The position numbers and the translations under genes were made by a program. A stretch of 64,000 nucleotides of DNA from Candidatus Poribacteria bacterium (GTDB lineage Bacteria > Poribacteria > WGA-4E > JAJDTR01): assembly GCA_028820655.1 (NCBI GenBank), contig JAPPIK010000041.1, positions 1 through 64,000 on the forward strand, in the 5' to 3' direction. The stretch's first letter is position 1; every line of letters starts with the position of its first letter. Positions 4,065-41,459 of this stretch are shown one piece after another. The notes under the pieces were generated by a model, which made no database searches, was not told the DNA's origin, and saw only the letters and a list, made by a program, of their open reading frames with translations.

Positions 4065-6326
4065 ATGGAAGCACTTCAAGGCATACTAGAACGAATAGTG
4101 TTTGAAAATGCCGAAACAGGTTACACCATTGGAAGGCTTTCCTCGCGCGAATACCCGAACGAGTTGATAACGGTCGTAGGCAACCTCGCCTCTGCCAATG
4201 CGGGTGAAAGCGTACTGCTAAAAGGGATTTGGACCAACAATCCAAAATACGGCAAACAGTTTCAGATTGAAGGATATGAAACGGTTCTGCCCGCTACCGT
4301 CGTGGGTTTGAGAAAGTATTTAGGCTCCGGTCTAATTAAAGGTATCGGTCCTGTAATGGCAGGCCGAATCGTCAACTGCTTCGGGATGGACACGATGGAG
4401 GTGATTGAAGGCGCACCTAAAAAGTTGATGAAGGTACCGGGGATTGGCAAAAAGCGCGTCGACATGATTATGGAAGCGTGGGAAGCACAGCGAGAGGTTA
4501 AGAACGTCATGCTCTTTTTGCAATCTCATAATGTGAGCACGACCCACGCAGCCAAGATCTATAAAACCTATCAAAGCGAGTCCGTGCCGATCGTACGGGA
4601 AAATCCATATCGTCTAGCGGATGACATTTATGGTATTGGGTTTAAAACAGCCGATACTATTGCGGAAAAGCTGGGAATGGACAGCGACTCTCCGCATCGC
4701 GTCACTGCCGGTCTCAAATACGTCCTGAGTCAGAAAGCGGATGATGGTCACGTATTCCTGTATCGCCATCAGTTGATTGCCGCGTCACAAGAGATATTGG
4801 GCGTCCCTACCGAGGCAATAGAGAACGGGATTGCTGCGTTATCCGCCAGTGAAGAGATTATTCCGGAGAAGCTAGGGATTCCCGTACCCACAGAGGCTGA
4901 GGAAGCCATATACCTTGCACCCTTTTATTATTCCGAGATTGGCGCGGCGAACAATCTTTCACGAGTCTTGAAATTCCATGCCACTCAGTACAATCCGGGT
5001 TTTTTGGATCATTCCATTTCACAACTCGAAAATGCTATGGGGATGTCATTTGCGACAAAACAGCGAGAAGCCATCAGAAAGGCATTGACATCGCGAGTGA
5101 TGATCCTGACAGGCGGTCCCGGGACGGGGAAAACGACGACGACAATAGGAATTATCCACTTGTTCGAGCAACTTGGACGACGAATTACTTTAGCCGCGCC
5201 GACCGGACGCGCCGCGAAACGTCTAAGCGAAACGACACGGCGCGAAGCAAAGACAATTCATCGCCTTTTAGAATTTTCACCGCAGGAGAACGGCTTCAAA
5301 AGGAATGCGGAAAATCCGCTTGAAACTGACGTGGTCATCATCGACGAAATCTCAATGTTAGATCTCGTGTTGATGAACAACCTGCTAAAGGCAGTCCCGT
5401 CCGAATCCATGCTGATTTTTGTCGGCGATGTAGATCAACTGCCGTCCGTCGGGGCAGGAAATGTCCTAAAAGATCTAATCGCGTCCGATAAAATCGCGAT
5501 TGTAAGATTGACGGAGATTTTCCGGCAGGCTCGGAAAAGCCTGATTGTGATCAATGCTCATCGTGTCAATCGAGGTAGGCACCCTAAAGTCTCAGGGCCG
5601 GCAGACCGTAATTTTTTCTTCATTGAAGAAGCCGATTCCGAGGAAGTTTCCGCCTGTATTTGCAATTTGGTGCGGGATCGATTGCCCAAACACTATGACT
5701 ACCATCCGATGGACGACATCCAAGTGCTATGTCCGATGCGCCGTGGCACGGTAGGCACGGACAATCTCAATAGGAGGCTACAAGAGACACTAAACACGGA
5801 TTCGGCTGAAGCGGTACGGGGTGGACGGAATTTTCGGGTGGGCGATAAAGTGATGCAGGTCCGCAACAACTACGATTACGATGTGTTCAATGGCGACATT
5901 GGACGCGTTCACGACGTGGACTCTATTGAAAAACAGGTATTAATTTCGTTTCCCGACAGAGTTGTCTGCTATGATATGGCAGATTTGAATGAGTTGGTCT
6001 TGGCGTATGCGACGACAGTCCACAAAGCCCAAGGCAGCGAATATCCGGCGGTTGTCATACCGCTTCTGACGCAACACTATATGATGCTTCAGCGCAACCT
6101 ACTTTACACAGCAATCACGCGGGCGAAAGAGCTTGTTGTGATCGTGGGAACAAAAGAGGCGCTCGGGATTGCCCTCCGTAACAACAAAGTAGTTGAAAGG
6201 AATAGCCACCTCGCCGGTCGAATTCGCGGGGCGTTGGAAGAAACGGGAGGAGTAGTTGGGCTTCCGGCCCCCGACACAACTTCGGTAAATGGTGATCGCG
6301 TCTTACCGAACCCGCCAGCGATTTGA
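4065..6326 (+). CDS. recD2: RecD2-type ATP-dependent DNA helicase
   Basis: Superfamily 1B 5'-3' DNA helicase of the RecD2 (RecD-like/YrrC) type, 753 residues, the usual length for RecD2 rather than for RecBCD RecD. The N-terminal OB-like region (about 1-90) is followed by helix-hairpin-helix segments (KGIGPVMAGRI; VPGIGKKR), then Walker A GGPGTGKTTTT with its lysine near residue 356, and Walker B VVIIDEISMLD near 425. The SH3-like region precedes motif V (TTVHKAQGSEYP) and motif VI (YTAITRAKE). No recB or recC is nearby, which fits RecD2, a stand-alone repair helicase. It lies 68 bases after thrC on the same strand and may share its transcript. Confidence 0.92.
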   Translation: MEALQGILERIVFENAETGYTIGRLSSREYPNELITVVGNLASANAGESVLLKGIWTNNPKYGKQFQIEGYETVLPATVVGLRKYLGSGLIKGIGPVMAGRIVNCFGMDTMEVIEGAPKKLMKVPGIGKKRVDMIMEAWEAQREVKNVMLFLQSHNVSTTHAAKIYKTYQSESVPIVRENPYRLADDIYGIGFKTADTIAEKLGMDSDSPHRVTAGLKYVLSQKADDGHVFLYRHQLIAASQEILGVPTEAIENGIAALSASEEIIPEKLGIPVPTEAEEAIYLAPFYYSEIGAANNLSRVLKFHATQYNPGFLDHSISQLENAMGMSFATKQREAIRKALTSRVMILTGGPGTGKTTTTIGIIHLFEQLGRRITLAAPTGRAAKRLSETTRREAKTIHRLLEFSPQENGFKRNAENPLETDVVIIDEISMLDLVLMNNLLKAVPSESMLIFVGDVDQLPSVGAGNVLKDLIASDKIAIVRLTEIFRQARKSLIVINAHRVNRGRHPKVSGPADRNFFFIEEADSEEVSACICNLVRDRLPKHYDYHPMDDIQVLCPMRRGTVGTDNLNRRLQETLNTDSAEAVRGGRNFRVGDKVMQVRNNYDYDVFNGDIGRVHDVDSIEKQVLISFPDRVVCYDMADLNELVLAYATTVHKAQGSEYPAVVIPLLTQHYMMLQRNLLYTAITRAKELVVIVGTKEALGIALRNNKVVERNSHLAGRIRGALEETGGVVGLPAPDTTSVNGDRVLPNPPAI

Positions 6327-24973: not shown

Positions 24974-27900
24974 ATGAACCGAAACACTCTTTTTTCTATT
25001 GGTGTCGTATTGATCATAGGAATATTCATAGGCTGTGGGGAGAAAGAAGACAAGGATATCCTAGATGCACGATTAGCGGCTGCCGAAGGCGATTTTTCTG
25101 CAGTCCAAATGGCAGTTGAAAGGGCGCTTGCAAATAACCCCAAGCAACCTGAAGCACTGTCCCTGCAGAACATACTTCGGTTGCGCTCAAGTTCGGACGT
25201 TTCCGCTTGGCAATCAGGTCTAGAGCAAGTTTTGAGTCATCTGAAACCGCTGAATGAACAAATTCAAGTAATCAGCGATCAGGAGGATCCTGACTCTGAC
25301 GATCTAGATCGACAAGAACGACTCATTCGGTCAAGAAACTCAATTGCCAGTTCTTTGGTGAACTCTCTCGCTGAAGCCAAAGGCAAGCAAAACAACCTCA
25401 TTACCGATTTGGCAAAGCAACCTAAACCAATAGTTATTACGGCCTTGTTGGAGGCCGAGAAGTGCTTTCAGCTTGGCCCCCGTGAAACCGCAGCCCGGTT
25501 GATTCAAGAGGCGACAACAACAAGCGACGCGGCAAGAAAGCTACTCGTTCAAGCAACCCGGCACGCCGATCCCCGTATCCGGCGGGAAGCAATCAAGCAT
25601 CTCGGCAATATGCGCAGCGAGGAACTCATTCCAACTTTTGAGTCTGTGCTGAAGAACAAGGACGAAGAGCCGGATGTACTTTATCGTGTCGTCGTTGCTT
25701 TAGAAATGCTAATTGGCAAGTCCGCCGTGCTGCCCGCTTTAAGTGAAGCAACCAAAACGAACACCACTCAAGTAAGGATTCACGCGGCGAAGTTGATTGG
25801 GCAGCTAAAAGCAGAAGAGGGGATTGATGAGATGATTCGTCTATTGGCAGATTCTAATTCCTATGTGACGAATACGGCGGCAAACGCCCTCGTTGAGATC
25901 GGAGATGCCTCAATTTCGCCGTTAATTGAGGTACTGGATACGGACGCGAGGAACGTCATCCCCAGCGGAGATTCAGAGTTTATGCATGAGTACCAGTATA
26001 TTGCAAATGTATTTATAGATGACGCTCGTCTGCAAAAACGTAGGTCGAGCACACAATCGCACGTGATCGGCGTTCTAGGTGCACTTCGGTCTCGCGAGGC
26101 GGTCCCGCGCCTAATTAACCTATTGGCAGATGACGACCTCCGTGTAAGCGCATTGGATGCATTGGTTGCAATGGGTACTGCGGCAACACCACACCTCTAT
26201 CCCGCTTTGGAACATAATGCAGAAAAAATAAGGATCAGTATTGCCGAAGCTCTGAGCAAAATTCAAGACCGGCGAACGATTAAACCGCTGATTGCGGCGC
26301 TTGAGCGCGACGGTCAGAGAAAGGAAGTCAAGTCTCACGCCGCCGAGGCGCTAGGTTCTATGAGGGCAAGAGGAACCCACGACGGAGCGGTTTCAGCGTT
26401 GTCAAGTGCGCTTGGTTTGGACGAGACCACTGCGACAAACGCGGCTGTCGCGCTCGGTCAGATCAACGTAGCCACCGACGAAACAATTCGTGGACTTATC
26501 ACGATGGCAATGGACAAGCAGCGGCGTGAGACAGTGCGCACGACTGCGATTTCTTCGCTGGGTCTTCTTAAGCCGACTGCGGCTGTTCAACCTTTGATAT
26601 TGCTGATGTTGAGCGATGATACCAGTCCTGTTATCCGAAACGGAGCAGTAGCGGCATTGGGCGAGATCAAATCGAATGAATCGCTGGCACCACTTCTTTG
26701 GATTCTATCGACGCGATATGATGATGTAAAGGATTTCCAGCGCCACATGAAACGGAGATACAACACGCTAGACGAATTTAGAAGCGCAATCGAAGCACTA
26801 GAGATTCAATGGACCTCCGATTATCCGCAACCGATGTATCGAACATGGGGAGAACTAAAATCAATTCCGAGTCTTGTGCGAAGTGAGGCAGCGATAGCCC
26901 TTGGAAAGATCAGAGGGAAATTCTTGTTTAGTAGCACGCAACGAGCACAGTACGAAGCGTCTCTAAACGGCGGAGACGTCCCCGAAGGGTTTCGACAGGA
27001 ATTCGCCAGCAATGGAACCGCGTTGTCTCAGAACATAACTCTTGACGTAGACAGACCGGGCGAGATCTGGATTCTGACGGACAAAGCAAACCAAACGCGA
27101 TACGATTGTAGGAAAGTCGGTGAAGCGCTTAACATTTATTTGAGGGGAGACGATGTTTTGGATACCCTGATATCCGCCCTTAAAGACGATGAACGTGCCA
27201 CCGTTCGGCGAAGCGCGGCTTTTGCGTTGGGCGAGATAAAGGGTGAATCTACCATTTCGCATCTGCTTAGCGCTGTCAAGGATGAGCAAGGGGTTGTCCG
27301 ACAGGAGGTCGCAACTGCTCTGGGAAAAATCAAAGGCGACCGTGTCGTTGCGCCTCTTCTCTCTGTGCTCAAGAAGGACAAATTTGAATCAACCCGAAAA
27401 CAAGCTGCGATCGCCCTCCGCGAACTGGACCCGGTCCAAGCAGATGTTGATTTAATTGACGTGATCCAAAAGGGCGTAGGAACGTTCGAGGAAGATCACG
27501 AAGTTCTATCCGTCATGAATGAAGTTGTCGCTTCACTAACAAAGGGCGGTGGAGCACCCACCGCAAAATATATCCAAGACGCCCTGAAGTCCGCAGATGA
27601 TGAGTGGACGCGCTCGACCCTTCTAAAGACGTTAGCTTCGTTAGAGCACTTTGCGTCGGTCAAGGGTCTGGCTGATGTGTTTAAATCGGAATTACAGCAT
27701 TCAAGTTACATCGTTCGCAAAACCGCAATCGGTGCCCTCGGAAAATATAAAGATAGAGATTCCGTCGATGTCTTGATAAAAGTGCTTCAAGATGAAAACG
27801 AATATAAATCTATGCGCGCAGAGGCCGCGGCCGCGCTGGGAGCGCTATTGGACGAGCGCGCATCTGCACCGCTTCTAGCCGCTCTTGATAACGAAAATGC

Positions 27901-29035
27901 AGAGGTGCGCGCAAAAGCGGCTACAGCATTGGGGGCCATCAAGGACGCCAATGCAGTTGGAAAACTCATCGCGTTGGTTGAGGATAGGTTGGAAGCCACC
28001 GCCGTACGGGCGGCAAGCATAGCTGCATTAGGCGCTATTGAGGACAAGAGTGTTGAACCACAGCTTCTAAATATCCTACAAACCGAATCGGGAGAATTAT
28101 ACAACAGCGCTATTTCAGCCTTGGGTAAGCTCAAGAGCACCAAGGCTGTGCCAGAACTGATTGCAATTCTTGAAGATCGGAGTTTACCCCTCGACGCCAG
28201 CACGGACGCATTGGCAAAAGCCTCTTCTCGTACGAAAGCGGCGGCTGCACTTGCCGATATTGGCGATGAACGCGCCGCCGAAGTTCTCGGGCGACGCGTC
28301 GCAGATGAAACGGAGTACATCGTAGCAATACACGAAGGACTAAAACGCAATTGGTCATGGGAGGCATTCATCGCCGCGGCTAAACCTTTTCAACTTCCTG
28401 CCTTCGCTGCTCCAAAACTAGAGCAACGGATGGAGGATACATGGGAGGATGCACCCATAAGAACCGCGGCATCGCTCGCGCTCGTTCACACTGATGTTGC
28501 GCAGGATGCTTCAGAAGTCGCCGCGAGGCTACGCGGACTGCTTTCCTCCCCCCAATCTGCGGTGCGTCAGGCAACCGCCCTTGCCATTGGCAAAAGCAAG
28601 ATTCGTGAGCTCAAAGACGAGCTTTTGAAGATGATGAAGGGTGTAACCGAACTTAACAAAGACGTCAGACGCGGTGCAACACAGGGCGTAGGAGAACTTG
28701 CCGACATTACCACGGTGCCAGATTTGATTGAAGTGTTCAACGACGAAACCAATCACGAGGAGATTCGCCGTGATGCGGCGATTTCGCTCGGAAAACTCGG
28801 CACCAGTGAAGCGGTTTCCGCGTTAATCGAGACATTGCAAACCTTACAGACGAACAATTCATCCAAGGCCTTCAGAATCGACATCACCAAAGCTCTAGGC
28901 AATGCGAAGAACGCCAAAGCGGTGGCAATACTCGAAACGGTTTTGAAAGACAGGGACTCCGATATTCATTTTCATGCGGCAGAAGCACTCTTTCAAATCT
29001 CGGGAGAGGGATACGGATATAATCGCGTCGGCTAG
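24974..29035 (+). CDS. Giant HEAT-repeat lipoprotein
   Basis: A 1353-residue lipoprotein. The N-terminus has a hydrophobic signal ending in a lipobox (IFIGCGEKED, Cys about residue 16). Residues 25-70 look like one or two TPR-type helices. From about residue 195 to the end there are dozens of HEAT/PBS-lyase-like repeats of about 30 residues, with recurring phrases such as VRAKAATALGAIKDANAV and VRRSAAFALGEIKGESTI. A divergent block of about 100 residues lies around 575-720 between two repeat groups. The family provides protein-binding solenoids; no enzymatic motif is seen. A GGAG ribosome site precedes the ATG. It probably sits on the periplasmic face of a membrane as a scaffold. The next gene, a solute-binding lipoprotein, may share its transcript. 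Confidence 0.88.
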   Translation: MNRNTLFSIGVVLIIGIFIGCGEKEDKDILDARLAAAEGDFSAVQMAVERALANNPKQPEALSLQNILRLRSSSDVSAWQSGLEQVLSHLKPLNEQIQVISDQEDPDSDDLDRQERLIRSRNSIASSLVNSLAEAKGKQNNLITDLAKQPKPIVITALLEAEKCFQLGPRETAARLIQEATTTSDAARKLLVQATRHADPRIRREAIKHLGNMRSEELIPTFESVLKNKDEEPDVLYRVVVALEMLIGKSAVLPALSEATKTNTTQVRIHAAKLIGQLKAEEGIDEMIRLLADSNSYVTNTAANALVEIGDASISPLIEVLDTDARNVIPSGDSEFMHEYQYIANVFIDDARLQKRRSSTQSHVIGVLGALRSREAVPRLINLLADDDLRVSALDALVAMGTAATPHLYPALEHNAEKIRISIAEALSKIQDRRTIKPLIAALERDGQRKEVKSHAAEALGSMRARGTHDGAVSALSSALGLDETTATNAAVALGQINVATDETIRGLITMAMDKQRRETVRTTAISSLGLLKPTAAVQPLILLMLSDDTSPVIRNGAVAALGEIKSNESLAPLLWILSTRYDDVKDFQRHMKRRYNTLDEFRSAIEALEIQWTSDYPQPMYRTWGELKSIPSLVRSEAAIALGKIRGKFLFSSTQRAQYEASLNGGDVPEGFRQEFASNGTALSQNITLDVDRPGEIWILTDKANQTRYDCRKVGEALNIYLRGDDVLDTLISALKDDERATVRRSAAFALGEIKGESTISHLLSAVKDEQGVVRQEVATALGKIKGDRVVAPLLSVLKKDKFESTRKQAAIALRELDPVQADVDLIDVIQKGVGTFEEDHEVLSVMNEVVASLTKGGGAPTAKYIQDALKSADDEWTRSTLLKTLASLEHFASVKGLADVFKSELQHSSYIVRKTAIGALGKYKDRDSVDVLIKVLQDENEYKSMRAEAAAALGALLDERASAPLLAALDNENAEVRAKAATALGAIKDANAVGKLIALVEDRLEATAVRAASIAALGAIEDKSVEPQLLNILQTESGELYNSAISALGKLKSTKAVPELIAILEDRSLPLDASTDALAKASSRTKAAAALADIGDERAAEVLGRRVADETEYIVAIHEGLKRNWSWEAFIAAAKPFQLPAFAAPKLEQRMEDTWEDAPIRTAASLALVHTDVAQDASEVAARLRGLLSSPQSAVRQATALAIGKSKIRELKDELLKMMKGVTELNKDVRRGATQGVGELADITTVPDLIEVFNDETNHEEIRRDAAISLGKLGTSEAVSALIETLQTLQTNNSSKAFRIDITKALGNAKNAKAVAILETVLKDRDSDIHFHAAEALFQISGEGYGYNRVG

Positions 29036-29085: not shown

Positions 29086-30462
29086 ATGGGCACACGCAAC
29101 TGCTCTATTCTTTTCCTATTGGTGACGTTCTGTTGTTTGATGCCCATCAGCCTTGAATGTTCGTCCCCGCCTCAATATGGCGGCAATCTCCGTCACGCCG
29201 TTTTTCAGCGTGTAACTACGCTTGACAATTCCAACTACCTCAATTATGCCGAATTGCAGATTGCTTCTCAGTTGTACGAAGGACTTGTGAGGCATGACGG
29301 ATATGGGGACATTGCGTCTGGGGTTGCCAAGAGCTGGGAACATTCTCCAGATTATCGCACATGGACGTTTACGATAGCTGAAAACGCCAGATTTCACGAT
29401 GAAGTGGTGGTGCGGGCAACCGACGTACAACGGGCGTGGGAACGATATATAAAAGAAAATTGGTTGGGAGAAGTTTCTAACAAATGGTTGAACCCGCTAT
29501 TCTCCATTAACGGGGCGTCTAACTTTCGACGTGGCAATTCAAACACGGTTTCCGGTATCGAGGTTCTGGATGATTGCCATTTGCAAGTCACGCTCGAGGA
29601 GCCGGATGACGAGTTTCTGATGAAGCTCACGGGGCCAGCCGCACATATTGCCAAACCGGACATCAGAGATGGGCGCGAATCGTTCCCGTTAGGGACGAGT
29701 CGCTTCCGCCTAGCGTCAATCCAACCCGAGGAAATACGCATCAAGGCGAATGCCGATTACTCGTGGGGAAAACCCTATCTCGAAGAAATCACATTCCACT
29801 ACTATGGTGGTGTTCGCCTAGCGCTGTTTGATTTTGAATCGGGTGTTCTGGATGCATTGCACCTACCAATCACCGAGACATTCAGACGGCGCCGCGATGA
29901 TTCAAGCGAAATCTTAATACAGGCGAAAGCGACGGTTGGTGTATACCTTCGACGATTGTCAGGGCAATCCGATCCGCCTGCATGGTATGATGTTTTAGAA
30001 TATGCCCTTGATGTCGATGAACTGCTACGGATGCAGTACGGCGCTCCATCCACGTGGGCGACCGTAACGTTGTCTCCAAGGCGATTCAACCCCGTCAAAG
30101 CGCGTCGCCGTCTGAAGAATTCGCCGGCTGTTCGGCTCACATTTGCTCCCCTGCCGGACAATAGCGGCAGTGAAATCGCCACACGATTACAGCGTGATTT
30201 CTTTTCGCCGATTGGGCTGCAAGTGTCCATGGTCGATACAGGATCCGAGCCCCTTGGATATGAAGACGCCGATCTCGCGCTGCTATCCGTTCCACTCCCT
30301 AGCGGCGCCGACACCGTAAGTAACCGGCTTAGTCGTTCCGACGATATAACGCTGCTCTATCTGCTGCCCTCGAACCTCCTGTGTCAACCGCGTCTCCGCA
30401 ACCTCAACATAGGATGGGGTGGTGTTTTGGCTTTCGACCAAGCTTGGTTACTAGATCGCTAA
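29086..30462 (+). CDS. ABC transporter solute-binding protein, family 5
   Basis: A 458-residue extracytoplasmic solute-binding lipoprotein of the SBP_bac_5 family (oligopeptide, dipeptide or nickel uptake). The signal peptide ends in a lipobox-like SLECSS (Cys about residue 25). The family start GGNLRHAVFQRVTTLDNSN and the stretch QLYEGLVRHDGYGDIASGVAKSWEHSPDYRTWTF match the conserved N-lobe, followed by HDEVVVRATDVQRAWERY. The C-terminal part is shorter than in most members (about 500-550). No permease or ATPase genes are adjacent, so it may serve a transporter encoded elsewhere or have another role. It is 50 bases after the HEAT-repeat gene. Confidence 0.85.
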   Translation: MGTRNCSILFLLVTFCCLMPISLECSSPPQYGGNLRHAVFQRVTTLDNSNYLNYAELQIASQLYEGLVRHDGYGDIASGVAKSWEHSPDYRTWTFTIAENARFHDEVVVRATDVQRAWERYIKENWLGEVSNKWLNPLFSINGASNFRRGNSNTVSGIEVLDDCHLQVTLEEPDDEFLMKLTGPAAHIAKPDIRDGRESFPLGTSRFRLASIQPEEIRIKANADYSWGKPYLEEITFHYYGGVRLALFDFESGVLDALHLPITETFRRRRDDSSEILIQAKATVGVYLRRLSGQSDPPAWYDVLEYALDVDELLRMQYGAPSTWATVTLSPRRFNPVKARRRLKNSPAVRLTFAPLPDNSGSEIATRLQRDFFSPIGLQVSMVDTGSEPLGYEDADLALLSVPLPSGADTVSNRLSRSDDITLLYLLPSNLLCQPRLRNLNIGWGGVLAFDQAWLLDR

Positions 30463-31512: not shown

Positions 31513-32758
31513 AGAAACTCCTTTCCGCATTGGAGACATGCTTACCCCCAAAAGTCGCCTGTCGCTACTCCTTCGATAACCCGTTTACTTTCGTTGTTAC
31601 CTGCATGGGCTTGCCCCCTCGAGTACCGCACCCGTCACCAGTGCCATGCGTGTCGAGCCATAGCGCCATTTCCGAATCCATATTTCATGCGAACTCTATA
31701 GGATTTGTATCGCATTAGGATCTCTATCGATCAATTGATTGACTAGGGAAGGCGACAGAATGTCCCGTGCCGTATATATTTGCTTGAACTTTTTGCACAT
31801 TATATCGTTCACAATTCACTAACTCTATTACGCGCAAACCGCTCGCCTGATTGCTACTACGACCCCTCCGTACTTGAAGCTCAAGGACTACGACCAGTAT
31901 GAGAAGACGTTCGAAATGTCCCACATTGTGTCGCTATGCGGTCGTAGACGTGATGGTTCTCTGACATTCGGGGATGCCGGTCATGCATGCCAATGCTGAG
32001 GATGTATATAGATTATTCGGCAAGCTATTCTTGCCAAGCCGTGTTGAGTATGATTTTACGAATAGGCGCGATTCTCTCGCAGGTACGGATGTGGAACAGA
32101 CAAGGCAGAACCACTTTGATTTTGACCGAGTCTTTCGCCGAGGATTCTGTAGCGCCGTGAACATCAAAGAAATCATCGGAAACGTCAAGAACATCCTCGG
32201 CCTTTGGATTCTCGGCGGTGCGCTGGGATGTGCGAGCCGAGCGGATCGATTGGACCTTCGTTATGATTCCAAGTTTTGTGGATCCTGTAGTTGCGCGTGA
32301 AGATTTGCAAGGTTCCGGCTTCGGATTCCGCGAGGTTTCAAGGTTTGGAAAATCGAAGTTCGGTTTCTCGGTAATTTCGTGACACACAAGTCTGGGCAAT
32401 AGATATGGAAACGAACTTTGCTAACTGCGGACTGCGGGGAGAGCGGTGATCGGCGAATCACGGTCGACATTTTTCATCACGATCGAGAGGCGAGCGCACG
32501 GTCAAGCGTCATGAACGCGCCGCGTTGTTAGAAAGGGAGCAAAGAGATCGGTGGGTAGAGAAAAAGCATACACGGCATAAAGCGGTGTGATGCGGGTGCC
32601 ATTAAACGTATTTTGTTGCCGCTGGCATAGAAACCGAGTTTTTGGACCCCGTTCGCTGAATCGTAGGCAAATTCGTCTGAATTTCGTTTGCCTTTGTTTC
32701 CACGTTGAAAAAAGGCGGTTCTTGTGCTGCCGTTGAAACAGGCGGCCTTTCAGACTAC
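31513..32758. other. Gene-poor, apparently decayed tract
   Basis: About 1.25 kb between a small membrane-protein gene and the aminotransferase. Short protein-like stretches occur, for example at about 31845-31998 on the plus strand (TTPPYLKLKDYDQYEKTFEM...), but all are broken by stops. No start, ribosome site or family supports an intact gene. ORFs at 31509-31718 and 31974-32300 are not convincing. Confidence 0.4.
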
Positions 32759-34057
32759 CTATTGAGCTTGTGTTGCCTCCGCTATGGCATCAAAGAGAAA
32801 TTGAATGTCCGATTCATCCACACAGGAATAGGCGACTCGGAGTTCGCTATCCCCTTGAGAAACTACGCCAATGCCGTATTCATTAAGAAGATGCTGTCTC
32901 ACCGCCTCTGCGTTGCCACGCTTTAAGCGTAAGCACATAAAATATCCGGCGTGAAACGGGTATACCTCCCACAAGTCTTCATAGGTCGGACTTCTCACAA
33001 CGTCTTTCACTTTAAGAGCGCGAGACTTTAGAGTTTCATATTTTTCCTGTTTTTCCTCTGTATACTCCGGTGTATTCATCGTCTGATACACCATGGTTTG
33101 CGACAATTGGGAGGTGCCTGACGTACTCACACGAATCAGAGCGGTGATCTTTTCTTCCAAGGGTTTCATCTCGTCTTCGTTTAGGCCAAAGGTAAGAAAA
33201 CCTACCCGCAATCCCCATGAATACTCCTCTTTCGTTGCCCCGTCAATCTTGACCGGTATAACGTTGGGATGGAGGTCGGTCAGCCATCCGAAGAGGGATT
33301 CCCGCAATACATTGTCATCATACCACATCCCAAAGTAGGCATCATCAACCATGACAAGAAGTTGGTTCCCTTGCTCGGCGAGCTGCTTAATCGCCTGAGT
33401 AGTTTGCCATGCTTCCGCGGAATTGATGGCATAACCTGTCGGGTTGTGTGGAAAGTTTAGAATCACGATGAGTTTCCGACATCGTTCTCCTGCTTGTATG
33501 AGGGTTTCGGCAAGCCCGCGAGTATTGAACTGCCATCGTGAATCGAAAAACGGATAGGTCACTATCTCTGCCTCATGTTTTCTCCCATAGATCGAAAGGT
33601 AGTTGCCCCAAAACTTATCGGGCAGGACCATCAGGTCTCCCCCATTTACAAATAGGTCGGCAATTATACTGAAACCGTGAGTCATTCCACTCGTAACAAT
33701 GGGTGTGCTGCACGGTTTTCCGTTAAGCGTCGGATTTTCGGCAATCATCTTGTTTTTCCATCGCTTTCGCAGGTCCATTTGGCCTAGAGCGGGCGCATAA
33801 CCGTAAACCAGATTTGGATCAAGCTCCGGTGTATACTCACGTGAACTCTGGAGATACATGGCACTATCATTTTCAAGCGCGACCGCACGAGTTGCATTGA
33901 AGCGATACGCCTTTAGAATCGCTTCGGCATTTTGGCTCAGAATACCCTTGGGATGATAACATCTCCGACCATACGCCGACAGCAGGTCGAAGACGACGGC
34001 ATTATTGGATTGGATTTTCTCGTTTAATTCGACAGCTAAGGGGTTCAGCGCGATCAC
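32759..34057 (-). CDS. Fold-type I aminotransferase (class I/II)
   Basis: A PLP-dependent aminotransferase of about 432 residues. The cofactor-binding features are SGMTHGFSIIADLF (phosphate-site region), LNFPHNPTGYAI (substrate and PLP contact Asn), VDDAYFGM (Asp pairing with the pyridine nitrogen), and the Schiff-base lysine in DGATKEEYSWGLRVGF. It resembles aspartate/aromatic aminotransferases of the class I/II fold, but the substrate is open. The GTG at 34057 is preferred because GGAGG stands 4 bases upstream; a TTG at 34084 is in frame but without a site. It is divergent from the acetolactate-synthase-like gene, with about 210 bases between the two starts. Confidence 0.85.
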   Translation of the reverse strand: MIALNPLAVELNEKIQSNNAVVFDLLSAYGRRCYHPKGILSQNAEAILKAYRFNATRAVALENDSAMYLQSSREYTPELDPNLVYGYAPALGQMDLRKRWKNKMIAENPTLNGKPCSTPIVTSGMTHGFSIIADLFVNGGDLMVLPDKFWGNYLSIYGRKHEAEIVTYPFFDSRWQFNTRGLAETLIQAGERCRKLIVILNFPHNPTGYAINSAEAWQTTQAIKQLAEQGNQLLVMVDDAYFGMWYDDNVLRESLFGWLTDLHPNVIPVKIDGATKEEYSWGLRVGFLTFGLNEDEMKPLEEKITALIRVSTSGTSQLSQTMVYQTMNTPEYTEEKQEKYETLKSRALKVKDVVRSPTYEDLWEVYPFHAGYFMCLRLKRGNAEAVRQHLLNEYGIGVVSQGDSELRVAYSCVDESDIQFLFDAIAEATQAQ

Positions 34058-34270
34058 ATGTCCTCCAAGTAGTATGAGTTCCAATGATTAAGTTGTATTC
34101 GACAGTAGAGATAAGGCAATCGTGATAATTGTTCAGGTAGCATTTTGTTCCCAACAGATTCCGAATTTCCGTGACAAACCCTAAATGGTTATCGACTTGA
34201 TTGATACCATAGAAAGGATTAATATCGTCCACGTCTCATCCATCACATGCAGCACCTCGGGAGGCGCAAA

Positions 34271-35851
34271 TTGGTAATAACCGGTGATGATTTAGTTGCT
34301 GAACTGCTTGAACTGTATAGGGTTAGAATTGTCTTCGGATTGACAGGGGATCATGATTCAAACATTTTAGACGCCGTAAAGAAATCCAACAAGATTCAAT
34401 ACTTCTCCGCGCAGTCGGCTCAAGCTGCCGTTTTCATGGCGGACGGATACGCGCGCGCAACCGGTAATATCGGAGTTTGCCTTCTTTCCGGAGAATATGC
34501 GGCCGTCAGCGCAGTGCCGGGAATTGCATCATCCAACGCGGACAACATTCCGCTACTGGTGCTCACGGAACAGATGCGCGCCGATGACCCATCGTTCAAA
34601 TCGCCGATGGAGCGTCACCGCGATCCAATTAATCATGTGGACTCACAGAAACTATTCGAAGCCGTAACGAAATGGCACTGGCGAGTTGAAAACCGCGAAG
34701 AAATTCGGCATACAATTGGTCAAGCATTCGAGATAATAGAACATGGGAGTCCGGGGCCTGTTCATCTAGAAATCCCATCTGATGTGTTAGAGGGTGAATC
34801 AACCGAGTTTCTCCCTTCCAGAGGAAGCATCTCCCAAAGTGCTCCACTTGCGGCATATTTTAACATGCTCACTTCGCACCTTACCACGTTGGTCGCAGAA
34901 ATGATGACCCATGCGAAGTACCCTGCCATTATCGCAGGCGGCGGAGTAGTGTCGGCACGCGCGGGAACTGAACTCATCCAACTTGCGGAAATTCTCAACG
35001 CTCCCGTATACACAACCCCGATGAGCAAAGGAGTAATTCCTTCTGCGCATCCGCTTGCAGCAGGCCTGGTAGGAGCCGCAATCGATAATCCGGCATCTTC
35101 AGTCATTTGTCAAGCCAATGCCGTCATGGCGATCGGGTGCGGCTTGTCGCGGCGCACGACAAGGGATGGGCAGTTACGGTTGCCGAGAGATCTCGTTCAA
35201 ATTGACATTGAAGAAAAGGCAATTGGCAGAAATTACCCCGTGCGTATAGGTATGGTAGCGGACGCGAAAACCGCTTTGAGGCAAATCATCGAGGTCATTG
35301 ACGAAGAATCGCTGGAAACTCACAACGAATGGGAAATCTCGATCACAGGCTCTGGTGCAGTTGGTGCAACCGAAAATAGCCAAGGTGCCAATCGTCAAAT
35401 CGCGGCAATTCTTCGCGCTTCGCTCAATGAAGAGGCAATTCTGGCGGTGAGCGGAGACTACCCCATCGAATTTCTAATCGATCACTTTGAGGTTTCTACA
35501 CCGCGAACTCTCCTCCATTCGTGCGACTTGAGAACTGCGGGATATGCGCTTCCATGTGCAATCGGCGCGAAGGTTGCGCATCAAGATCGTCAGATTGTCG
35601 CGGTAACGGACCGCGAGGAATTCTCGTTGATGGCATCCGAACTGACCACGGCAGCGCAAAAGGGTATAAATGTTACCGTATTGGTTGTTGGGACTCGACA
35701 GCGTTCCCCGCAACCGGACGTGAAAAAACTTTCGGAATCATTCGGACTTCACGGCGTGCGAGTCGAGACGATTGCGAAGTTGAGACCCACGCTGGATTCC
35801 GTGCTGCATTATTCCGAAACCTCCGTAGTCGATGTTCCACTCCTCGACTGA
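34271..35851 (+). CDS. Acetolactate synthase-like protein lacking ThDP motifs
   Basis: A protein of about 526 residues with the full three-domain layout of ThDP enzymes of the acetolactate synthase/POX group: PYR domain (about 5-165), central Rossmann-like domain (about 195-330), and PP domain (about 370-520). Two key sites are altered. At the position of the catalytic Glu of the RHEQxAxxMAxGYAR motif the sequence reads SAQAAVFMADGYAR, with Ala in place of Glu. The Mg/ThDP motif GDG...N of the PP domain is replaced by TDREEFSLMASEL followed by VVGTRQ. The surrounding folds are well kept (TAGYALPCAIGAKVA). It is thus unlikely to use ThDP normally. The TTG at 34271 follows GGGAGG; an ATG at 34247 is in frame. 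Confidence 0.82.
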   Translation: MVITGDDLVAELLELYRVRIVFGLTGDHDSNILDAVKKSNKIQYFSAQSAQAAVFMADGYARATGNIGVCLLSGEYAAVSAVPGIASSNADNIPLLVLTEQMRADDPSFKSPMERHRDPINHVDSQKLFEAVTKWHWRVENREEIRHTIGQAFEIIEHGSPGPVHLEIPSDVLEGESTEFLPSRGSISQSAPLAAYFNMLTSHLTTLVAEMMTHAKYPAIIAGGGVVSARAGTELIQLAEILNAPVYTTPMSKGVIPSAHPLAAGLVGAAIDNPASSVICQANAVMAIGCGLSRRTTRDGQLRLPRDLVQIDIEEKAIGRNYPVRIGMVADAKTALRQIIEVIDEESLETHNEWEISITGSGAVGATENSQGANRQIAAILRASLNEEAILAVSGDYPIEFLIDHFEVSTPRTLLHSCDLRTAGYALPCAIGAKVAHQDRQIVAVTDREEFSLMASELTTAAQKGINVTVLVVGTRQRSPQPDVKKLSESFGLHGVRVETIAKLRPTLDSVLHYSETSVVDVPLLD

Positions 35852-35914: not shown

Positions 35915-38842
35915 CTAGCGAACTGCATCGGCAAGCAACTCTATTAGATGTTTAGGATCCTTTCCGGTGCCCTGTTTAATCTGCTCACGGCAAGACACTC
36001 CAGCCACTCCCACTTCAAAATTCCCCCTCTTTTCTCTTATTTTGCCAAAGAGCCTCAGTTCGCCTATCTTCATTGAAAGGTCGTAGTGTTCCTTTTCATA
36101 GCCGAATGAACCTGCCATTCCGCAACAACTCGAATCGATAACCTCGACACTAAAGCCGGGCGGCAAACTCAGTGCTTTTACGGATGACTCGATGCCCACA
36201 ATTGCCCGTTGATGGCAATGTCCATGCAAAAGGATGTCCTTCCGAGCGTCGGTAAACTCGATGTTGAGGTTCCCCTCCTCATGGGAGGCAATCAGGAATT
36301 CCTCGATTGTAAAGGCATGGTTTCCAACGAGTTTGGCATCCGCCCCATCTATCAAATCAATGTAGTCATCTCGCAGCGCCAAGATACAACTCGGCTCGCA
36401 CCCCACAATCGGAACTCCTTTTTCCGCGTAGGGTTTCAATTGTTCGATATTGTACCGCGCGTTCTCAATCGCTTGTCCAAGCATCCCCTTGGAAATCATC
36501 GGACGTCCGCAGCATCTTTTCTCCGGCAAGATTACGTCGTACCCCGCAGCTTCAAGCACATGGAGCGCCGCTTCTCCGACCTGCGGGTAGTTATAATTCA
36601 TAAAGGTATCGTGAAAGAGGACGACTTGCTTTTTCTGGCCCCCGCGTGGGCGCCGGTGTCGCTTGAATCGCTTTTCAAAAGTCTTGTGCACAAAGTTCGG
36701 TAAGGATCGACGCTGATCAACCCCGACGTATTTTTCCAGAATTTTCTTGGAAAACCAACAGTTGGCAAGCCAATTCGACACCGGGGCGAATCTCGCTCCA
36801 AACTCGCTAAGTCGGGCAATATCCCCAAAAAGACGGTTTCGAAGCGGGAGCCCGTGTTCCTCATAGTAGTGGGCAAGAAACTCGTACTTTATTTTTGCCA
36901 TGTCCACATTTGAGGGGCATTCCGCTTTACAGGCTTTGCACTCTAGGCAAAGGTCCAGAACTTCATGAAGCCGTTCACTCTTGAAGTTTTCACGCGCGAG
37001 CGATCCTGAAATGACAGCCCTCAGTGCATTCGCTCTGCCACGGGTGGAATGTTCCTCTTCGCGAGTCCCTACAAATGAGGGGCACATTGTGCCTGTCAGG
37101 GTCTTGCGGCATGCGCCAACACCGTTGCACATTTCAATCGCCCCCGCAAACCCGTCTTGGCTTGAAAAGTCAAAGTAGGTATCGATTTTGATTGTGCGGT
37201 AACTTGGCCCAAAGCGCAATGATTTGGTCATCGGCGGCGCGTCAATTATCTTCCCAGGGTTCATTATGTTGGTGGGGTCGAACGCGGATTTTACCTCACG
37301 CAAGGCGCCGTAAATCTGCGGACCAAACATGCTCTCAATCCATTCGCTGCGAACAAGCCCATCACCGTGCTCGCCACTCATCGCGCCGCCGAGTTCGATC
37401 AGCAAATCGCGCACATGTCTAGCAATAGAGTGCATCTTCTCGATATCCGATTCCGACTTGAGATTTATGACCGGGCGATTATGGAGCAACCCGACACTGG
37501 CGTGTGCATAGTGCGAAGCCGTGGTATCGTGATCGGCGACAATCTTGTCGAACCTTCGAATGTACTCGGGCAGATCTTTTATGGCGACGGCGGCATCTTC
37601 AACAAACCCGACCGGCTTGTGGTCGCCTGTCGTTCCCATTAGTAATCCAAGCCCCGCCTTCCGCGTCTCCCAAACACGTTGCTTTTCTTCCGTGGTAAAG
37701 CACGACACAAAGGCATATCCCAAACCAACGGACTTCATTTTGTGCTCAAGTCCGTCGAGTTTTTCCTGAAGTTCGTCCTTGGAATCGCCGTAAAATTCTA
37801 CCGCCAAAATCGCACCCGGATCGCCTTGGATGAAATTGGTAATACGCGAGAACTCGAGCGACCGTTTCGTCATGCCGATAATCTTGTCATCGATTAGTTC
37901 GACGGCAGTCGGACTGCATTCCAAGATAGGTTGCATCGCCTCCATAGACTCAATCAGGGTCTCAAAGTGCAGCACATTCAATGCGGTCATCGCGGGCGTT
38001 TGGACGAGATCAACCTTCGCTTCGGTAATTGTAGCGAGGGTGCCTTCTGAACCGACGACGATTTTTGCAAGGCTGAAAGGGAGATCGGCGTTACAACCAT
38101 CACGCCGGTAAGGGGTAACCTCCTTTGTTCCGGCGTCCGTGATGTACTCATCCAAATTATATCCCGCGACACGTCTCAGAATGCGTGGGTAGCGTTTCCG
38201 AATCTCCTCTTCATTTTCCGCCGCGATTCTGCAAATTTCTTGGTAGATGTGTGCCTCGTGTGTGTCCTCCGAGCATTTCGTTGCAAGTTCTTCGGCCGAA
38301 ATCGGCTCAGCAACAATCTCGTCGCCGTTAGCAAGCACAAGGTCTAGTGACATAACGTGGTCGATGGTCTTGCCATAGATGAGAGAGTGAGAACCGGCGG
38401 AGTTGTTGCCTATGGTGCCGCCAACGTTCGCTCGACTGCTGGTCGCTAGGTCAAGTGGATACATTAGGCTGTGCCGTTCAAGGTGATGATTCAAATTATC
38501 GATTACGACTCCGGGTTGGACCCTAGCCCATCTTTCCTCGACATTGACCTCAATAATTTTATTCATGTACTTGGACATGTCGAGCACGATTGCCTCGCCC
38601 ACCGTCTGCCCCGCCAGGCTTGTTCCTCCGCCGCGCGGAAGGATCGGCACGTTTCGCTCATAGGCAATCTTAATTGCCGCAATGACATCCGCTTTATGTT
38701 TAGGTACAACGACGCCTATGGGTTCTATCTGATAAAGGCTTGCATCCGTGCTATACAGCACTTTGGAATACGGATCAAATCGCACTTCGCCTTCGATCTG
38801 GTCCAACAAGATTTGTTCCAATTCCTTGGTTAGATCATTCAT
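35915..38842 (-). CDS. FAD-linked oxidase with Fe-S and CCG domains
   Basis: A 975-residue glycolate/D-lactate dehydrogenase-like fusion (GlcD plus GlcF/GlpC type) that oxidises a 2-hydroxy acid and passes electrons to an Fe-S carrier and probably quinone. The FAD_binding_4 domain lies at about 40-215 (ILPRGGGTSLAGQTVGEAIV; VGGTIGNNSAGSHSL), and the FAD-oxidase C-terminal domain at about 245-515 (GEHGDGLVRSEW). Two Fe-S cysteine clusters follow near residues 570-620 (GVGACRKTLTGTMCPS; CLECKACKAECPSN), then two cysteine-rich CCG domains (EKRCCGRPM; DSSCCGMAGSFGYE). Its substrate cannot be read from sequence. It is convergent with the AHAS-like gene. Confidence 0.9.
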   Translation of the reverse strand: MNDLTKELEQILLDQIEGEVRFDPYSKVLYSTDASLYQIEPIGVVVPKHKADVIAAIKIAYERNVPILPRGGGTSLAGQTVGEAIVLDMSKYMNKIIEVNVEERWARVQPGVVIDNLNHHLERHSLMYPLDLATSSRANVGGTIGNNSAGSHSLIYGKTIDHVMSLDLVLANGDEIVAEPISAEELATKCSEDTHEAHIYQEICRIAAENEEEIRKRYPRILRRVAGYNLDEYITDAGTKEVTPYRRDGCNADLPFSLAKIVVGSEGTLATITEAKVDLVQTPAMTALNVLHFETLIESMEAMQPILECSPTAVELIDDKIIGMTKRSLEFSRITNFIQGDPGAILAVEFYGDSKDELQEKLDGLEHKMKSVGLGYAFVSCFTTEEKQRVWETRKAGLGLLMGTTGDHKPVGFVEDAAVAIKDLPEYIRRFDKIVADHDTTASHYAHASVGLLHNRPVINLKSESDIEKMHSIARHVRDLLIELGGAMSGEHGDGLVRSEWIESMFGPQIYGALREVKSAFDPTNIMNPGKIIDAPPMTKSLRFGPSYRTIKIDTYFDFSSQDGFAGAIEMCNGVGACRKTLTGTMCPSFVGTREEEHSTRGRANALRAVISGSLARENFKSERLHEVLDLCLECKACKAECPSNVDMAKIKYEFLAHYYEEHGLPLRNRLFGDIARLSEFGARFAPVSNWLANCWFSKKILEKYVGVDQRRSLPNFVHKTFEKRFKRHRRPRGGQKKQVVLFHDTFMNYNYPQVGEAALHVLEAAGYDVILPEKRCCGRPMISKGMLGQAIENARYNIEQLKPYAEKGVPIVGCEPSCILALRDDYIDLIDGADAKLVGNHAFTIEEFLIASHEEGNLNIEFTDARKDILLHGHCHQRAIVGIESSVKALSLPPGFSVEVIDSSCCGMAGSFGYEKEHYDLSMKIGELRLFGKIREKRGNFEVGVAGVSCREQIKQGTGKDPKHLIELLADAVR

Positions 38843-40466: not shown

Positions 40467-41459
40467 TCAACGGGTTTTTTCCACGCTTTCAGCGAGGCCT
40501 TTCATGTAGCCGATTGCGAACACCTTCGCCATCTTCCAGCCTGCTTCCCCCTCCAAACCGATGCCGTGGTCCGGACGCATGGGACCCTCAAAATCCACAT
40601 CGTAGTACGCCTCCATAGCATTAAACATATCGGTTTGACCGTCATCGTGCAACACTTCTTGGAACTTTGGTACCGCGCCCTTTACGTCCCTAAAGTGTCC
40701 GAAGAAAATTCTACCCTGTGAGCCGAAGTGGTGGATTGCCGTCGGTATATCTTCGCCCATTTCGGAAAAGCAACCTTGGCAGAAGTTCAGTCCGATGGTA
40801 TCCGTTGTGGGCGCGATATTGAGTAACCGGTCAAAGGTCTCGGTACTCCGCAGTGGTCTTGCAAACCCCTGCGTCGGGGAAATGGGAGGGTCGCATGGGT
40901 GAAATGCGAGACGCACGCCGCAACTCTCCAAGGTAGGCACAACCCCGTTGACGAGGTATGCCAGGTTTTCCCAAGTTCGTTCTTCCGTTAACTCCCCATA
41001 CTCGGTTAGGGGAAGCTTTTTGATTTCTTCGTAATCAAACGCGCGAGTTTGAGCACCGCCTCGTCCGGGTAGTGTCCCGGTTCCGGCGACTCTGCCCCAA
41101 ACGCCGAATTCGTCAATCCAGCAAGCGCTTGACGCATTTATGGTACGTATGTCTGCCTCGGCCAAGTTTTCAACCGATTTGCAGAAGTTTTCCAACTGTT
41201 CCTCGCGGCCATCGTAACCCAGCATAATCTTATTTATTGGCGGGCAGTCTTCAAACACCTCGAGCCTCAGTCCATGCGCCTCGACTTGGCGTTTCATTTT
41301 CACCAAGTCTTCCACCTTCCAGACTTCATGCCAAGGCGACTCAATGCCGATAGAAGGCGCGGGCGGTCCGCCGCCAATCGCATCCGTACAACCTATCTGT
41401 TTTGCAAATCTCAGGCTTTCTGAAGAATAGGCAGCGCCTGCGTGTATTGCAAATCTCAT
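40467..41459 (-). CDS. uxuA: Mannonate dehydratase-like enzyme, copy 1
   Basis: A 330-residue TIM-barrel enzyme related to UxuA mannonate dehydratase, which converts D-mannonate to 2-keto-3-deoxygluconate. UxuA-type metal-site motifs are present in order: AFHPCDPPISPTQG, NFCQGCFSEMGEDI, GHFRDVKGAVPKFQE and MRPDHGIGLEGE. The protein is shorter than E. coli UxuA (about 394), so it belongs to a sister subgroup whose substrate could differ. A strong GGGGGA site precedes the ATG. It is close in sequence to the gene at 42831-43811, with almost the same length and the same motifs. Confidence 0.85.
   Translation of the reverse strand: MRFAIHAGAAYSSESLRFAKQIGCTDAIGGGPPAPSIGIESPWHEVWKVEDLVKMKRQVEAHGLRLEVFEDCPPINKIMLGYDGREEQLENFCKSVENLAEADIRTINASSACWIDEFGVWGRVAGTGTLPGRGGAQTRAFDYEEIKKLPLTEYGELTEERTWENLAYLVNGVVPTLESCGVRLAFHPCDPPISPTQGFARPLRSTETFDRLLNIAPTTDTIGLNFCQGCFSEMGEDIPTAIHHFGSQGRIFFGHFRDVKGAVPKFQEVLHDDGQTDMFNAMEAYYDVDFEGPMRPDHGIGLEGEAGWKMAKVFAIGYMKGLAESVEKTR

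Follow-up and report, generated by a model that had tools for sequence, protein, structure and literature searches.

Gene content of the pALS locus

The window, that is, the whole stretch of 64,000 nucleotides analyzed here, comes from contig JAPPIK010000041.1 (assembly GCA_028820655.1) of a Candidatus Poribacteria bacterium. It contains a gene, with a reading frame open throughout, for a protein that has the fold of the ThDP-dependent decarboxylases but lacks a recognizable ThDP site (Table 1). We refer to this protein as pALS and number its residues from a TTG codon. The TTG is a better start than the longer ATG, which was rejected, because the Shine-Dalgarno-like GGAGG in front of the TTG is conserved.

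All three Pfam domains, TPP_enzyme_N (PF02776), TPP_enzyme_M (PF00205), and TPP_enzyme_C (PF02775), scored well above their cutoffs, and both Pfam and the fold matches gave the PYR-TH3-PP domain order of the ThDP-dependent decarboxylase superfamily. In a Foldseek search of the PDB, the AlphaFold model of pALS (pLDDT 87.8, pTM 0.91) matched best to BbmA (TM score, 0.85), and acetohydroxyacid synthases also matched with a TM score of about 0.85. The claim of an earlier sequence-only reading that the whole fold is kept therefore holds for the three domains but not for the ThDP-binding loop, of which about 20 residues are deleted. No NCBIfam cutoff was reached, and the best models, those of acetolactate synthases, gave at most about half the required score. 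pALS obtained 269.6 bits against acetohydroxyacid synthase (TIGR00118; curated cutoff, 538.35), 232.5 bits against PRK08266 (NF006122; curated cutoff, 571), 219.6 bits against 5-guanidino-2-oxopentanoate decarboxylase (PRK07524; cutoff, 500), and 178 bits against glyoxylate carboligase (TIGR01504; cutoff, 711), in which last comparison it shows Ala and no GDG.

The divergent neighbor of pALS encodes a PLP aminotransferase that scores as an intact family member, with 539.8 bits against PRK08637 (curated cutoff, 301) and 2x5f as its nearest solved structure. A promoter and terminator scan of the intergenic region common to the pair gave a number of matches not above chance, as judged from shuffled sequences. 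GC3 was 0.50 for the pair versus 0.57 for the flanking genes.

Near the pair, a frameshifted, truncated pseudogene (31914-32503, plus strand) matches, in three frames, residues 9 to 226 (about 218) of a 661-residue protein of which the same-genus locus L031 has an intact copy (4337-6322). Convergent to pALS, a fused FAD-binding and Fe-S/CCG protein (35915-38842, minus strand) resembles the D-2-hydroxyglutarate dehydrogenase YdiJ (618 of 1350 bits); it is 88% identical in the sister genome and does not adjoin the pair in genome G004. The window also encodes a 1353-residue protein, apparently a long array of HEAT-type repeats (24974-29035, plus strand), followed by a family 5 solute-binding protein (29086-30462), as well as a 330-residue relative of UxuA-like mannonate dehydratase that scores below the NCBIfam cutoff (40467-41459, minus strand).

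Table 1. Features of the pALS-aminotransferase pair, in window positions
Feature	Position	Strand	Remark
PLP aminotransferase, PRK08637/NF006388 type, divergent partner	32759..34084	-	GTG at about 34054 possible true start
Divergent intergenic region common to the pair	34085..34259	.	One weak sigma-70-like match, 34201-34228
Shine-Dalgarno-like GGAGG	34260..34264	+	Conserved in both orthologs
pALS, ThDP-decarboxylase-fold protein without ThDP site	34271..35851	+	526 aa from TTG (534 aa from ATG 34247)
PYR domain, residues 1-172	34271..34786	+	
Codon 50, Ala where catalytic Glu is expected	34418..34420	+	From alignment with relatives
Central (TH3/M) domain, residues 200-347	34868..35311	+	Most constrained part, dN/dS about 0.09
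PP domain, residues 372-526	35384..35848	+	Least constrained, dN/dS about 0.33
Codons 447-449 (D-R-E) where metal/ThDP GDG is expected	35609..35617	+	From alignment with relatives
Codon 474 (Gly for Asn ligand) and junction of ~20-residue ThDP-binding-loop deletion	35690..35716	+	

Loss of the ThDP site and distribution of pALS

Searches of 85 genomes from the phylum and of 84,980 species genomes yielded only two further pALS members: an ortholog from the same genus (L031/L002, 69% identity) and one from another family of the same order (L032/L003, 43%). Because two of the three members share a genus, the conservation of pALS rests on two independent lineages. The scan of the 84,980 species genomes, seeded by two short conserved peptides and thus able to miss distant members, returned no member outside Poribacteria, and the relatives it did return have complete sites. 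In samples of 392 and 400 genomes from two other phyla, with up to three candidates scored per genome, there was likewise no pALS member, and the relatives there were complete. Glu was retained in 44 of the 45 other relatives inspected (Asp in L034), and GD was retained in 41/41 relatives with a readable C-terminal domain (GE in L066).

In the ThDP-dependent decarboxylase superfamily, the catalytic Glu occupies standard position 51, and the metal/ThDP motif reads GDGX24-27N. The Glu is retained by 94% of superfamily members and the first Gly of GDG by 98% (PMC3534367). The sequence-only reading had claimed that pALS carries Ala for the Glu and has its GDG motif replaced, and both claims were borne out. 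Ala50 of the window protein (Ala and Ser in the orthologs) aligns with Glu in 96% of active relatives. The GDG motif gives way to D447-R448-E449, with Gly at position 474; at GD itself, the window protein has D447-R448 and the orthologs have N-R and N-T, whereas active relatives carry G (100%) and D (98%). The GDG position thus reads DRE, NRD, and NTE in the three members, with Arg, Arg, and Thr at the metal Asp. At position 474, that of the Asn ligand, the members have Gly, Glu, and Asn, and right after it about 20 residues, which form the ThDP-binding C-terminal loop in relatives, are missing from all three. In the PYR domain, the GPG turn (positions 76-77) is replaced in all members and Asn80 is altered in two. 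Both the Asn and, in the M-G turn, the Met are still present in the third member (L032/L003), and its Asn ligand suggests that erosion continued after the lineages split.

Both orthologs share the loss of Glu, the loss of GDG, and the same deletion, and since these features are common to three genomes at 43 to 69% identity, they are not an effect of chance or of the alignment. The alignments show that no pALS member has the ThDP-activating Glu, the GDG that binds the metal, or the loop that holds ThDP, and pALS is very probably in a non-ThDP state. A precedent that supports the absence of ThDP binding is TKT-delta-38, a model of TKTL1 consisting of transketolase with a 38-residue active-site deletion, which folds and shows no specific binding of the thiamin cofactor (PMC3485151). 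Like pALS, TKTL1 is a ThDP-enzyme relative with a cofactor-site deletion; unlike pALS, it is human, belongs to the transketolase family, and has one deletion.

Other comparisons set pALS apart from enzymes of the same build. The acetohydroxyacid synthase large subunit (TIGR00118) has the same fold and domain order, and pALS lacks its catalytic residues. BbmA, deposited as a "ThDP-dependent HKA synthase" (8x3x), is the best solved structure for pALS by both sequence and fold; unlike pALS, it keeps the Glu and the GD motif in the alignment and is ThDP dependent as deposited. Glyoxylate carboligase (TIGR01504; 2pan, 8i01) is also without the catalytic Glu, having Val instead, but still binds the cofactor (PMC3534367), whereas pALS additionally lacks the metal site and the loop. 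The distinction from glyoxylate carboligase drawn from the sequence alone was therefore correct.

The closest tree branches, with the domain order and length of pALS, are those of the PRK08266-like proteins (NF006122) and of L149, a protein found in the sample from the phylum of the Planctomycetota locus L080. L149 shares the central-domain motifs GGGVV.A, TPM.KG, and QID..E..GRNYPVR with pALS. Like the PRK08266-like proteins, it keeps the Glu, GDG, and ThDP loop, none of which is present in pALS. In a tree built by a quick method without bootstrap, the three pALS members formed a clade (100) sister to L149 (SH-aLRT, 93). As the active site of this nearest relative found is complete, with Glu, GDG, ND, and loop, the ThDP site was probably lost a single time, on the stem leading to the pALS clade. 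The neighbors of L149 (an M81 peptidase, a URO-D family protein, and LMF1) gave no functional hint. Within the order, family f1 (G000, G001) lacks two PRK08266-like ThDP enzyme groups that are present in other families, and G004 contains one PRK08266-like group plus pALS.

Purifying selection, with constraint strongest in the central domain

Between the two members of the same genus, dN/dS was 0.17 (NG86) or 0.23 (YN00) for pALS and 0.19 for the aminotransferase versus 0.05 for two flanking genes, and pALS evolved 3 times faster than these two genes at the protein level. At the level of codon substitutions, these values show that the pALS reading frame is maintained by purifying selection. The sequence-only reading had taken the double loss to suggest a new function and had named homologs that retain the residues as the sign of mere local decay. 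Both orthologs lack Glu and GDG and the frame is open in all three genomes; because the losses are shared by a small subfamily under purifying selection, a new role is supported rather than local decay.

By domain, dN/dS was 0.14 for PYR, between the values of the central and PP domains (Table 1), and 0.32 for residues 386 to 480. The central TH3 domain is generally less conserved in the superfamily and takes on functions of its own, for example the binding of ADP or FAD (PMC3534367). The ratio of central-domain identity to the averaged identity of PYR and PP was 1.25 to 1.30 in pALS pairs, compared with a mean of 0.77 (range, 0.57 to 1.03) in 101 pairs of active relatives, which are similarly diverged (38 to 50% identity) and not mutually independent. 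Positions that are conserved in active relatives have been retained in pALS to different extents, 20/25 in the central domain versus 20/41 in PYR and 14/30 in PP; within PYR, the whole MADGYARATG helix is retained. The usual pattern of domain conservation is inverted in pALS, the central domain now being the most conserved, so the present function most likely lies in that domain. The nearest solved central domains are those of BbmA, glyoxylate carboligase, and cyclohexane-1,2-dione hydrolase. In the alignment, read by eye, an FAD-contact Arg of AHAS is apparently not kept in pALS.

The aminotransferase neighbor and possible roles of pALS

The aminotransferase lies divergent to pALS in all three loci, so that the conservation of this neighbor, which the sequence-only reading had proposed to check, was confirmed. 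In the third genome, the remaining neighbors are unrelated (by eye, frames like those of a peroxiredoxin, a TIM-barrel sugar isomerase, a transporter, and a glycosyltransferase), and the pair is thus the conserved unit. In families f1, f3, and f4, both genes are present (3 genomes) or both are absent (11), a pattern for which adjacency alone could be a sufficient cause. In family f2, most genomes have the aminotransferase but no pALS, and no ALS-like gene was found in the 1.5-kb flanks of the f2 aminotransferase loci examined. Since the PRK08637 aminotransferase has no adjacent pALS in most of these Poribacteria, unlike at the window locus, it does not need pALS in general. Relative to f2, the aminotransferases of the three pairs group together in a single clade, as the species tree would also predict.

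What pALS does was weighed among several readings, of which the retention of ThDP in a noncanonical site is highly improbable. Glyoxylate carboligase is active without the Glu (PMC3534367) and in the third member the Asn and the M-G-turn Met persist, but all three members have a changed metal Asp, an altered GPG turn, and a deletion of the diphosphate loop, and the cofactor-site deletion in TKT-delta-38 abolishes specific thiamin binding (PMC3485151). We also regard it as quite unlikely that pALS is in slow decay, with the common losses as early steps on the way to its disappearance. Its rapid protein evolution, the looseness of the PP domain, and an Asn ligand position that differs in each member, as if loss had progressed after the split, would fit decay. 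Against this stand the full-length open frames at 43 to 69% identity, the low dN/dS, above all in the central domain, and the same pace in the adjoining, intact aminotransferase; local decay is visible in the nearby true pseudogene, and pALS has nothing alike.

Each ThDP site of the superfamily combines the Glu of one subunit with the GDG of the other. An inactive pALS subunit might pair with an active ThDP paralog and inhibit or stabilize it, as the ten other ALS-like genes of the window's genome and the intact MADGYARATG helix would allow. Since pALS supplies neither Glu nor GDG, no site in a mixed dimer would be complete, which excludes catalytic complementation; moreover, the conserved neighbor is an aminotransferase, there is no paralog gene in the vicinity, and the window's genome lacks the PRK08266-like groups that are nearest to pALS within the order, making such a complex decidedly improbable. 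Somewhat less improbable, though still unlikely, is a ThDP-free enzyme whose old pocket, now with Gln48, Gln51, His416, Asp419, and Glu450 among its lining residues, catalyzes another reaction, acting on either the aminotransferase's substrate or its product. These five residues do not vary among the three members, Gln48 replacing an Arg present in 87% of active relatives, and arginine transaminase with 2-ketoarginine decarboxylase provides a parallel for an aminotransferase beside a ThDP-decarboxylase-type protein. These five polar residues are weak evidence, however, because invariance in the three rows is common, extending to well over one-third of positions, and the highest dN/dS falls in the PP domain, opposite to the expectation for a new active site. 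Because constraint has shifted to the central domain and the PP domain is loose, we favor binding or regulation by pALS over ThDP-free catalysis.

Our tentative proposal, to which we give slightly less than an even chance, is that pALS is a conserved pseudoenzyme that acts via the nucleotide-type domain at its center and probably regulates the aminotransferase or assembles with it. It would have arisen once, from an active PRK08266-like ThDP-dependent enzyme, and would still fold as the usual dimer or tetramer while binding neither ThDP nor Mg. The central domain may bind a nucleotide-type ligand such as FAD, ADP, or an acyl-CoA, as in relatives, and ligand-bound pALS would then assemble with or control the divergently encoded aminotransferase, such that amino-acid/2-oxo-acid conversion would be adjusted to cofactor status. 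A regulatory or scaffold role is in itself about equally tentative, and that the aminotransferase is the direct physical target seems rather doubtful; genes that diverge from a common promoter region need not encode proteins that interact physically. Yeast Thi3p is likewise a decarboxylase-type ThDP-enzyme relative. It is a regulator and thiamine sensor (PMC4299793) and so a precedent for a regulatory role, with the difference that Thi3p senses thiamine and pALS has no recognizable ThDP site.

With partial coverage of the literature, we found no paper joining ThDP-dependent enzymes, pseudoenzyme, and acetolactate synthase, and none of relevance on BbmA/CsmA or 2-ketoarginine decarboxylase. pALS would represent a pseudoenzyme branch of the ThDP-decarboxylase fold, such as we did not find in the literature covered, and "acetolactate synthase" would be a wrong annotation for genes of this type. 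It is possible, if less than probable, that a whole ThDP-decarboxylase scaffold was converted here to a cofactor-sensing regulatory subunit of an aminotransferase, or to a ThDP-free enzyme, as selection moved away from the two ThDP domains to the central domain of nucleotide-binding type. One protein, one neighboring aminotransferase, and one relative with an intact active site make this a compact system. The superfamily is defined by its cofactor, yet the pALS lineage dropped the recognizable ThDP contacts and stays under selection, a pattern suggesting that the central domain is able to carry function alone.
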